Shown: positions 10,591 through 35,093 of the stretch, piece after piece | Layout of the letters: each line of letters begins with the position of its first letter | Numbering within the stretch: the stretch's first letter is position 1 | Assembly (NCBI GenBank): GCA_003696625.1 | Contig: RFGR01000172.1 | Coordinates: 1-47,520 of the forward strand | Reading direction: 5' to 3' | Length of the DNA: 47,520 nt | Source of the DNA: Planctomycetota bacterium | Lineage (GTDB): Bacteria > Planctomycetota > UBA1135 | Notes under the pieces: model-generated | The model's input: the letters and a program-made list of their open reading frames with translations, nothing else | Told to the model about the DNA's origin: nothing | Databases searched by the model: none | Position numbers and translations under genes: made by a program

Positions 10591-10637
10591 GCGCCGGAGT
10601 CCGCGGTGGCTCACGGCAGGATCTCGGTCACGCCCAG
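10591..10637. repeat. imperfect direct repeat, right copy, overlapping the 3' end of the FG-GAP gene
   Basis: Second copy of the repeat at 9853-9900, with the perfect 19-bp core at 10612-10630. It covers the stop codon (TGA, minus strand) and last codons of the gene 10611-12329. The arrangement resembles an integration site at a gene's 3' end that has been duplicated. It could instead be a leftover of a tandem duplication of the gene end. Confidence 0.75.
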
Positions 10638-12329
10638 GGAGGAAAGGGTCCAAACGTCGCCGGGTTCGCCGGGCTCCTCGACCACGACCCGGCTGTAGAG
10701 GGTCTGGCCGACAAGGGCCGGCGGGGGCGGGAGCTGGATGCTGAGGGTGGCCTCGCCGGCGGTGTCGAGGACCCCCCGGTAGAACTGTCCAGGCAGGGTC
10801 TGGGAGAGGAGGAAGGAGGGGGCGAGGAAGGTGGGCCAGCGGTCTGCCAGGAGGGTGCCGCCGTCGCCATCGAAGGCGGTGGAGAGGAGGGTGTGGAAGG
10901 ATCGGCCGGGGGAGGAGGGGATCGAGACGGTGAGGTCGACCGTGGTGCCGGCCTGGGCCTGGGCGGGGACCCAGAGGGTGCGTTGGCCCATGATGGAGAG
11001 GTGCTGGGACTCCTCCGGCCCAGGAACCGAGAGGGCCCGGGAAACCCGGGCCAGTTCCGTGAAGCCGTCTCGGTCGATGTCTCCCAGGGAGGTGGTCCAA
11101 TTATCGTTGAAGGTTGTATTGGAAGGGTCCACCACGAGGTCGGGGGACCATGGCATCAAGTCGGTTGGGAAGGGGATGTGGTCGATGCGTTGGAAGGTTG
11201 TCGGATCGATGTAGACCAATTCCGAGAAAGCTCGATCCGGAAGACCATAGCGGTCTTCCCAGATATGGGCCAAGGCTACAAGCTCCTCCCCTGCGGGAGA
11301 TCCCGCGGTTCCGGTCAAGAACAGAGGAAAGGTCAGACTGTAGAGGTAGGCCGGGGACGGGTAGACATCCTCCAGGAGCCTTTCGCTTCCCTGAAGAATG
11401 AGGGAACCAGTCTGACCGTCAATACCGAGGATCAGGTTGTTTGCTGTGCCCACGATGTCGGGGAATCCGTCCTGGTTGACATCTGGACCCCAAATGTTCC
11501 AGCGGGACAGGTCTTGCCCTTGGAGGGAATCCCGGAAGGACCAGATCTCGTGGCCATCTATACCAGAGAATGCTCTGTAGACATGTTCTTGATACTTATT
11601 GCCCATGGTATAGAGGGTAGTGGCGTAGACGATATCCGGCATCCGGTCACCATCGATATCAGGAAGGTTTCCTTCTCCTCTCCATAGCGGATCAGATGGG
11701 TAAGAGTAATCAGGGTCGGTTTTCCGGATCCATGAAGGAGAAAAGGTCCGTCCACTGATAAGGCTGGTGGTCCGGGCCGCGCCTTCGGTGAACCAATAGA
11801 AATCATCAACGCCATCCAAGTCAACATCTCCCGCCCAGATTAATAAATGCGGAGTTGAAGGAAGCGAGCCTATGGTCTGGCCAGTTTCCAAAAGAACCGC
11901 CCTTGTGGAATAGGTCGGATAATCAGGGATGACGGCAACGTGGAGCCCAAGGTATTGCCCAATGGCGTGGCGAGGGAACCACCCAGTCAATTCGTTCTGA
12001 TCCAGGCCGGGGTGGGCCAACTTAGGGTTCCATTTCCATTCCGGATGTATGAACAATTGATAGAAGAAGCCAATACTGACATTGTGTCCAAACTTCCTGT
12101 CTGCGTAATAGGACAAGGCGAATTCCTGCTTGCCATCTCGGTCGGAATCTCCAAGGGGTGTGGCCGTTTCCCAACGAATATAATGTTCATTGGAAGGAGG
12201 TTTGGCCAAAAATGCCCTGCGAACGGTTAATTCCCGATTCACCACGGGGTTGCCGCCCTGGGGCGGCGTCACCGCCCCAGGGAGAACACCCGCCATCGCG
12301 GACATAGCGACGATGGCGAGGAAGCGCAT
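10611..12329 (-). CDS. secreted FG-GAP/VCBS-type repeat protein
   Basis: A 572-residue exported protein with signal peptide 'MRFLAIVAMSAMAGVLPGAV'. It carries at least five calcium-loop FG-GAP-like repeats of the D-x-D-x-D-G-x-x-(D/E) type ('DSDRDGKQEF', 'DVDLDGVDDF', 'DIDGDRMPDI', 'DVNQDGFPDI', 'DIDRDGFTEL'), the pattern of integrin-like beta-propellers. The last 110 residues match the shared C-terminal module ('GVLDTAGEATLSIQLP'). The start overlaps the stop of the upstream beta-helix gene (TAATG), so the two are translated together and probably act together outside the cell. The 5' two thirds is clearly AT-richer than the rest of the window (line 12061: 27/60 G+C), suggesting acquisition or relaxed codon use. 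The ligand is unknown. Confidence 0.8.
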   Translation of the reverse strand: MRFLAIVAMSAMAGVLPGAVTPPQGGNPVVNRELTVRRAFLAKPPSNEHYIRWETATPLGDSDRDGKQEFALSYYADRKFGHNVSIGFFYQLFIHPEWKWNPKLAHPGLDQNELTGWFPRHAIGQYLGLHVAVIPDYPTYSTRAVLLETGQTIGSLPSTPHLLIWAGDVDLDGVDDFYWFTEGAARTTSLISGRTFSPSWIRKTDPDYSYPSDPLWRGEGNLPDIDGDRMPDIVYATTLYTMGNKYQEHVYRAFSGIDGHEIWSFRDSLQGQDLSRWNIWGPDVNQDGFPDIVGTANNLILGIDGQTGSLILQGSERLLEDVYPSPAYLYSLTFPLFLTGTAGSPAGEELVALAHIWEDRYGLPDRAFSELVYIDPTTFQRIDHIPFPTDLMPWSPDLVVDPSNTTFNDNWTTSLGDIDRDGFTELARVSRALSVPGPEESQHLSIMGQRTLWVPAQAQAGTTVDLTVSIPSSPGRSFHTLLSTAFDGDGGTLLADRWPTFLAPSFLLSQTLPGQFYRGVLDTAGEATLSIQLPPPPALVGQTLYSRVVVEEPGEPGDVWTLSSLGVTEILP

Positions 12330-14562
12330 TAGAGTTGCTCCTTGGCGCCCTTGTCATGTTCGGCAAGGTCGGAAGGTCGCTGGTCCTGAAGGTAGTCGTA
12401 ATTGAACTCTCCGTCCGGGACGTCTGCCGTGATCCAGGGATTGGATTCCAGGAAAACGGAGTTGGGCTGGGCATTGAGAGAGAACCCGGTAGGGTAAACC
12501 GAGGACATCACGATTGGCCCCACCCAAGGAGTCGGAGTGGATGTACTCTTGCTGTCCCCTTGGATGGTGGGCTTGGAGCGGATGCCTGAGACACCTATCT
12601 TGCTCGCAGGGACCGTCGTATTCAGGTCATCGAATACGAGACGGCTTGACAGGAGAGGGGAATAATCTTCGTTGGCTCCGCTCGCCGGTCCCCGCTGGAA
12701 GATCGTGTTGTAGATCCGGTTGCGCAGGTACTTGGCCCCGCCGATAATCTGGACCTCGCCGCGGCTGTACATCGTCGAGCCGGGCAGGCTCTCCGAGATG
12801 TCGAAGGTGTAGGCGTTCCCGTTCTCCGGTCCGACCATGGTGCAGTGCACGATCGGCGCCAGCAGGTAGGGTCCGTTGCCGGCGGGGGAGTTGGCGGTCT
12901 CCGTCTCGGCGTGGAACTCCCCGGCGCCGTTGTTCCAGATGAAGTCGTTGGTGAAGCGGACCGGGATGGCGGCGTAGTTGTTGCTGCCCGGGTCGCTGTT
13001 GCCGCGGAGTTCGAGGAGTACGCCGTGCAGGCTGTTGTTGCTGATCGCGCAGCGGTTCACCCGGCCCTGGCCGGAGCGGATGCCGGCCTCGATGAAGAAG
13101 GGCTCGTAGCCGTAGTCGATGAAACTCAGCTCGCCCTGGGCCATGTCGTAGTTGTCCCAGGTTCCGCCGGCGATTGCCTGGGTGGCGTGGCCGGGGTTGT
13201 TGGTCCACTCGTGGCCGCAGCGGATCCGCAGGCCCTCCCGGGCATTCTGGTGCAGGCGGCAGTCCTCAAGGGACAGCCAGGTGCCCATCGGCACGGGGGG
13301 GTCGTTGGCCAGGGTGGAGGGGGTGTTCAGGAAGACCCCTGAGCCGATGTTCCCGGCCGAGACCAGTCCGTCCGCCTCGACCTCCAGGTAGCCCTGGTCG
13401 TTGTAGGCGTGGAGGCCGGAATGGTGGAAGGTGGAAATCGGGGAGGCGATGCCATTCCCCGTCGACAGGATTGCCGTGCCGCCCTGGAGGTCGAGACGGC
13501 CGCGGGTGTTCGGCGCCACGGTGGCGTAGGCTCCGGCCAGCCCGAACCCTTGCATGGACACTCCGGTGAGGGTCACGTCGTAGCGGGCGGCGAAGTTGGG
13601 CGTTCCAAAGGAAGCGGGCGCGGTCGAGGCATAGAGGCCGAGATCCCAGCCCTCGCCATCGGTGCCGGTGAAGGCGCCCTGCCAATCACCTCCCGTCACC
13701 TCGAGTTCCACCGTGGCGACCAGGGCGGGACGGTAGTCGTTCGGAGCCTGCGGGAATTCCGCCGAGGTTCCGGCGGCATGGACCTCTACGAGTCGGCTGG
13801 CGTTCGCATGCGGGTACGCCAAGTCGGCGGCCGGGAGCCCACCGAGGAAGGGCGCCGGGGCCATCAGGCTGAACTGCCCCACGGTGTCGAGGTTGCTGAT
13901 CCGGGCGTGGATCACGCCGGGAGAACCAGAGGACTCCAGCGCGTGGAACCGCAGGCCGATCGTTGGGGCCGGCGGGTTCGAGATCCAGGTGGAGGCATCA
14001 TCGTCGCGGATCTGGCAATCGTCGATGTCCATGTCGATCACCGCGCCGGCATCAGCGGTGGCCGAGCAGGAGACCGTGTTCCAGAGCAACTTCAGTCCTT
14101 GGAGATGGGCGTCGAAGAAGCCGCCAGTCGAGCCGTCGATGAGGATCCCCTGATCTCCTCCGGCCACCACCAGATTGGAGAGGACGGTGTCCGAACCGGC
14201 CCCAGCGGGGCGGCCTTCGAGCTGGAAGATGGCAGGGGATCCGTTGCGGGAAAGAACCCAGACCGGATCGGCGTCATACGGCTGAACCGTTACGCCCGGC
14301 CTGATGTTGATGGGGAAGGTCTCGACCTTGCCACCTTGGGACGGCAGGGAGACCTCCGAGTAGGGGTGGACGACACCACCTTGGATCATGCCGCGCACAA
14401 GGATGGTGTCTCCCTCGTCAGCCACCGTCGCCGCTTCGGAGATGGTGACGTAGTGGAAGGCCGTCAGGGTGTCCAGACCATCGACGATCCAAACCTGTCC
14501 CGGGGGGGGGCTTGGGGCGGAAGAGCGGCCGCGAGCAGCCACGGGAGGACAGGTGAGAACAT
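12329..14562 (-). CDS. secreted right-handed beta-helix protein, start separated by a frameshift in a C9 tract
   Basis: About 740 residues rich in short beta strands and Asn/Gly turns ('VVAGGDQGILIDGSTGG', 'RCAISNNSLHGVLLEL', 'NDFIWNNGAGEF'), the signature of a parallel beta-helix as in pectate lyase-like or adhesin proteins. The main frame has no good start: its nearest start is GTG at 14542, giving no export signal. One base out of frame, ATG at 14562 begins 'MFSPVLPWLLAAALPPQA', a textbook signal peptide. The two frames meet at a run of nine Cs (14502-14510, minus strand); ten Cs would join them exactly. I therefore annotate from 14562 with a frameshift. Its stop overlaps the next start (TAATG). 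An 18-bp palindrome lies 11 nt before the ATG. The 3' third is AT-rich like the next gene. No catalytic residue was identified. Confidence 0.72.
14502..14510 (-). repeat. C9 homopolymer at the signal-peptide/mature-protein junction
   Basis: Nine Gs on the plus strand (nine Cs on the coding strand), about 50 nt inside the beta-helix gene. With nine Cs the signal-peptide frame reads on into 'PPRDRFGS'; with ten it joins 'PPPGQVWIVDG' and the whole beta-helix. It is either a sequencing error or a slippage site. Confidence 0.85.
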
Positions 14563-34997: not shown

Positions 34998-35093
34998 CCT
35001 CTCTTTGCCGGCGCCGCGGTCGGCTTCGCGGCGACGGCGCCCGGCCCGTTCCTAGAGGCCTGGGATGCCGCCGGCCCCCCCCCGCCGCCGGCC

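Follow-up and report, generated by a model that had tools for sequence, protein, structure and literature searches.

Contingency genes with homopolymeric tracts are familiar from Campylobacter, Helicobacter and Neisseria. The contingency genes of Campylobacter are treated in PMC8437040, and the opa genes of Neisseria carry pentameric CTCTT repeats within the leader-peptide coding sequence (PMC3745409). According to the passage of PMC4060949 that cites Mrazek et al. 2007, long repeats are strongly associated with reliance on a eukaryotic host. Repeat-based phase variation has so far been described mainly in host-living bacteria. Our searches of a collection of open-access papers turned up no account of phase variation in Planctomycetes. 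The original prediction for the locus presented here called such a switch, as known from pathogens, unexpected in an environmental bacterium, in agreement with a 2025 review (PMC11868660).

Our analysis suggests that this planctomycete locus is, with high probability, a phase-variable (contingency) locus of the Opa-like type, subject to slipped-strand mispairing at a leader repeat. By analogy it would work like opa, but it is no opa gene. As in opa, a multi-copy secreted family displays a frame-shifting leader repeat, with some copies in frame and others not, and one genome (G016) likewise uses a pentamer, TCGGC. Unlike Opa, however, the protein is a predicted beta-helix without a Pfam match and not a beta-barrel, and no homology to Opa was found. 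Moreover, the repeat units vary among the planctomycete paralogs (single C, tetramer, pentamer, heptamer) whereas opa shares one unit, and the planctomycete cassette includes a probably coupled FG-GAP partner, belongs to an uncultured planctomycete and is a putative switch. With the homopolymeric-tract genes the locus shares runs of roughly 8-13 C or G in coding sequence and a putative on/off control by single-base slippage, but its tract is placed at the junction of signal peptide and mature protein, in one family, and in a non-pathogen lineage with MutS-type proteins.

The window, that is the whole stretch of 47,520 nucleotides that was analysed, is the entire contig C53 of the Planctomycetota MAG G000 (3,038,382 bases, 186 contigs, 90.5% complete). 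The features of the locus are:

10611-12329, minus strand: FG-GAP-repeat secreted partner gene (PF13517, 3.1e-7; PF01839, 3.1e-7)
12329-14506, minus strand: mature beta-helix frame P0001, 725 codons and TAA, one frame off the leader
14464-14562, minus strand: the OFF reading, a truncated 32-codon open reading frame ending at TGA (from translation)
14502-14510, minus strand: C9 homopolymer, the putative slippage tract at the leader/mature junction (from sequence; repeats in 14 other members at the same region)
14511-14562, minus strand: leader-coding region, ATG and hydrophobic signal peptide MFSPVLPWLLAAALPPQ (from translation and hydropathy)

The original prediction described a leader that runs out of frame at nine Cs, and a beta-helix frame beyond them, one base away and without a signal of its own. 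The translations agree with it exactly. On the minus strand the ATG at 14562-14560 opens the leader MFSPVLPWLLAAALPPQA, immediately followed by exactly nine Cs (14510-14502), G14511 being the first base of the Ala codon that the tract completes. The leader frame translates as MFSPVLPWLLAAALPPQAPPRDRFGSSMVWTP, 32 amino acids, and stops at the TGA at 14466-14464, while the beta-helix frame reads PPGQVWIVDG... from the tract to the TAA at 12331-12329. A search of ATG, GTG and TTG starts over about 110 bases upstream yielded no hydrophobic leader belonging to the mature frame itself; the sole mature-frame start that reads through to the tract is a GTG without a hydrophobic stretch. The leader reaches a best 9-residue Kyte-Doolittle mean of 2.06, signal peptides being called by hydropathy alone in all members. 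The window copy sits in the OFF phase in the present assembly.

Taken alone, the C9 tract of the window is only moderately unusual, and it becomes compelling through comparison of the family. Under a first-order Markov model of the gene body, C9 or longer is expected at 3e-3 per 60 nt in the leader region; within the gene body of this copy C-runs reach at most 7, and the window contains 4 matches to C8+ (two overlapping pairs) against a mean of 17 in shuffles, i.e. fewer. The sole other C9 of the window (35075-35083) is intergenic, with convergent genes on either side and no leader. The GC content of the beta-helix gene (12329-14506) is 0.65, below most of the window (~0.72), and G009 shows a comparable drop (0.51-0.58 vs ~0.65).

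The beta-helix protein (profile A1) is present in 8 of the 26 genomes of its GTDB family, where a single genome can have as many as 10 matches, and absent from all 128 other genomes of the order by the same profile. A narrower alignment (A3) led to 7 related loci, all in Planctomycetota MAGs; the named MAGs with the protein are Bin8, OFTM274, isolate 128-326, NIOZ-UU23 and NIOZ-UU38. A scan of IMG/VR for relatives in which alleles might be seen found none, and searches of Pfam and NCBIfam gave no family match. The AlphaFold2 model is mostly beta (pLDDT 72, pTM 0.80) with the C-terminal 80 residues uncertain, and its best solved Foldseek matches are parallel beta-helix proteins, namely TSP3 of phage CBA120 and AlgE4/AlgE6 (E 9e-5 to 9e-4), at ~10% identity and with low TM-scores. 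The predicted fold is like that of the secreted right-handed parallel beta-helix proteins such as the alginate epimerases AlgE, PL6 lyases and phage tailspikes. We regard the product as a predicted beta-helix protein with a hydrophobic leader, presumably displayed at the surface when exported.

An FG-GAP gene lies directly downstream in nearly all cassettes, its start often sharing bases with the stop codon of the beta-helix gene (as ATGA or as TAATG, the latter in the window at 12331-12327), and these overlaps suggest translational coupling. The window genome carries about six such cassettes: C53, C109 (with C15 perhaps its continuation), C117/C36, C153/C130, C168 and C173. Two, probably three, of them have leader repeats. 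At C117/C36 and C153/C130 the contig ends overlap by exactly 99 bp, with the breaks inside beta-helix genes (loci L212, L217, L215 and L216), and look as if repeats or strain variation had halted the assembler.

Among the 24 profiled members, 15 carry a perfect frame-shifting repeat in the leader-coding region. Counting the additional leaders named below, the repeats are poly-C (C8-C13), (TCGGC)6-13, (CGCAGCT)3-7 and (CTAC)n, with unit sizes of 1, 4, 5 and 7, none a multiple of three; as in SSR-mediated phase-variable genes they are perfect, lie in coding sequence and are longer than expected by chance. By genome and contig they are distributed as follows:

Poly-C in G000: nine Cs in C53, eight in C109
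Poly-C in G009: ten Cs in C136, thirteen in C141, nine in C13
Poly-C in G012: twelve Cs in C159, nine in C214, eight in C380, nine in C376
Poly-C in G002 and G003: thirteen Cs in G002:C12, eight in G003:C54 (G003:C36, with only seven, is not among the 15)
Pentamer TCGGC in G016: six copies in each of C96, C51 and C48, thirteen in C266
Heptamer CGCAGCT in G002: seven copies in C27, three in C7
Tetramer (CTAC)n in G000:C173 (locus L211): at the contig end, 15258-15271, within the leader of a further beta-helix gene

The pentamer leaders of G016:C48 and C266 and the tetramer of G000:C173 are additional to the 15 of 24, and the membership of G016:C48 and C266 rests on the leader and the first mature residues since contig ends cut both just downstream. 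Across the 26 genomes, TCGGC in four or more copies occurs at only four places, all leaders, CGCAGCT in three or more copies at only two, both in members of the beta-helix family, and the CTAC 14-mer once, in the leader of G000:C173. On the tree of members the repeat state changes at least 5-6 times, and pentamer and heptamer are each restricted to one genome. Repeat-free members with an intact leader are three in G014, G001:C500, and G000:C153, C168 and C117.

With fixed repeat definitions and a 110-nt leader box in the 24 members, the automatic score found repeats in the box in 14 of 24, against 7 repeats in the remaining 105,974 bases of these loci; the pentamer of G016:C51 lies in the leader but just outside the box, and moving it over gives 15 vs 6. 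The number of members expected to have a leader repeat is 0.17, for a nominal P of 2e-24 (automatic count of 14, members treated as independent), which overstates the significance since the members are related. As a matched control, the 5' regions of the FG-GAP partners showed such repeats in 0 of 24, with a longest C-run of 5, and we reject poly-C as a general trait of secreted genes on that ground. The C12 and C13 tracts occur in genes of 46-58% GC, where the Markov model predicts 2e-6 to 1e-5 such tracts per 60 nt. Gene bodies have a maximum C-run of 4-7.

Both in-frame and out-of-frame copies exist. Five are in frame (G009:C13, G012:C159, G012:C214, G003:C54 and G003:C36) and 10-11 out of frame (G000:C53 and C109; G009:C136; G012:C380; G002:C12, C7 and C27; G016:C96, C51 and C48, and probably C266), close to the 1:2 ratio of random slippage. 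These states should be interpreted as those of different copies (paralogs or homologs) and not of alleles of one locus, every genome being a MAG with one consensus each. Two copies were left out of the count: G012:C376 (nine Cs), owing to a deletion or frameshift at its N-terminus, and G009:C141 (thirteen Cs), because two leader frames compete. The OFF copies retain long open frames. In the OFF-OFF pair G002:C7/C27 the differences by codon position are 0.36, 0.28 and 0.66, the third being highest, and since such pairs differ mainly at codon position 3, their coding is maintained and they are not simply dead genes. This pattern indicates that OFF copies are under purifying selection. Some copies are decaying: G012:C214 is in frame with its nine Cs, yet its mature part has a TGA in place of a conserved Trp (locus L137), and G012:C376 looks degraded.

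The original prediction left the choice between a contingency-type export switch and a base lost from the consensus, and proposed comparing homologous loci, of which intact frames without a homopolymer would speak against a switch. The relatives decide strongly for the switch, through repeats in paralogs and other genera, unrelated units and mixed states; an intact frame free of repeats is found in a minority of members only. Consensus or assembly error, whereby the true C count differs and the gene is constitutively intact, is in our judgement improbable. The window does come from a fragmented MAG, and the most frequent kind of indel error is a single base in a homopolymer. However, the C tract is a feature of the family, as are the pentamer, heptamer and tetramer at the same place, and out-of-frame copies occur in five genomes (G000, G002, G009, G012 and G016), non-homopolymer repeats included. 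A lone base error is insufficient because errors cannot place pentamers and heptamers at this leader position, and an error at C53 alone would leave the family-level reading of phase variation standing. Slightly more doubtful is programmed slippage, in which RNA polymerase or the ribosome would slip on the C tract and deliver a fixed in-frame share from unchanged DNA. Homopolymers of at least nine can promote transcriptional slippage, and the position of the tract is conserved; yet tract lengths vary between 7 and 13 without a constant frame offset, some members are in frame already, and the pentamer and heptamer repeats, which to our knowledge are not recoding signals, are left unexplained.

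That the window copy is a pseudogene, a decaying paralog frameshifted by chance, we consider very unlikely. Its 725 codons are open with full-length homology and an intact partner, the frameshift falls exactly at the repeat site of the family, and the codon-position bias among OFF copies also speaks against decay, although two members do show it through a nonsense codon (G012:C214) and a damaged N-terminus (G012:C376). The least probable alternative is an effect at the protein level, whereby a proline closing the signal peptide would, in GC-rich genomes, happen to be encoded by C-rich codons. Repeat-free members can carry proline there (MLFAPISAQQ) and the window has ~72% GC, but the repeats are strongest in genes of 43-58% GC, tracts out of frame do not specify a functional run of prolines, the pentamers and heptamers do not give proline runs, and C-runs are short in gene bodies (maximum 4-7) and in the partners' 5' regions (at most 5). 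Phase variation, the reading that we favor, should itself be viewed with some caution insofar that the presence of a tract is not fully independent among related members, the tree needs only 5-6 changes, and a minority of members are repeat-free with an intact leader.

Under phase variation, DNA slippage at the leader-coding repeat would alter its length. With matching frames, the cell would make the beta-helix protein together with its signal peptide, export it and presumably display it; with mismatched frames, translation would halt after ~32 codons and leave no exportable product, and the OFF state would probably lower the FG-GAP partner too via lost translational coupling. The tract, the frames, the recurrence of different repeats at one place, the mixture of states, the intact OFF frames and the overlapping partner are observed; we infer that the repeats slip in living cells, that the protein lies at the surface, that the OFF state has a polar effect on the partner, and that phage, grazers or neighbours select for heterogeneity. 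With less assurance, we think it rather probable that this GTDB family of uncultured Planctomycetota possesses multi-locus phase-variable two-gene cassettes, that the leader switch was re-invented with different units in different lineages, and that heterogeneity is selected in this presumed environmental lineage, probably by phage, grazers or competitors and not by host immunity. A repeat-switched multi-copy two-gene system in which the unit type is swapped among paralogs at one site would suggest that fluctuating selection acts on a secreted component, and makes the question of such switching in uncultured Planctomycetota testable with existing metagenome reads.

Loss of mismatch repair was considered as the cause of the repeats and rejected, MutS_V proteins being found in 8 of 8 genomes. 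The remaining C9+ tracts of the window genome were likewise rejected as switches; of twelve, only the one at 14502-14510 of the window lies in a leader beside a long mature frame. C9+ runs number 283 in G001 and 318 in G009, against 2-29 in the six other genomes searched, and many of those in G001 lie at contig ends. A run of 29 Cs in G000:C40 (7537-7565, locus L025), ~40 bases from the contig end, is probably an assembly or sequencing artefact. A sulfatase-like gene in G009:C10 (locus L115) carries a C9 (9565-9573), in frame, where its leader ends, and is possibly a second switched family, or the tract is possibly due to chance given the number of such runs in G009. The beta-helix member in G012:C73 (locus L218) has no leader repeat, and its frame is broken at an internal G9 (contig positions 12989-12997) on a conserved Gly-Gly motif. 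In G000:C117 (locus L212) a C8 at 2327-2334 lies ~95 bp upstream of the intact repeat-free leader and beside a TATA-like box, where it could be a promoter tract.
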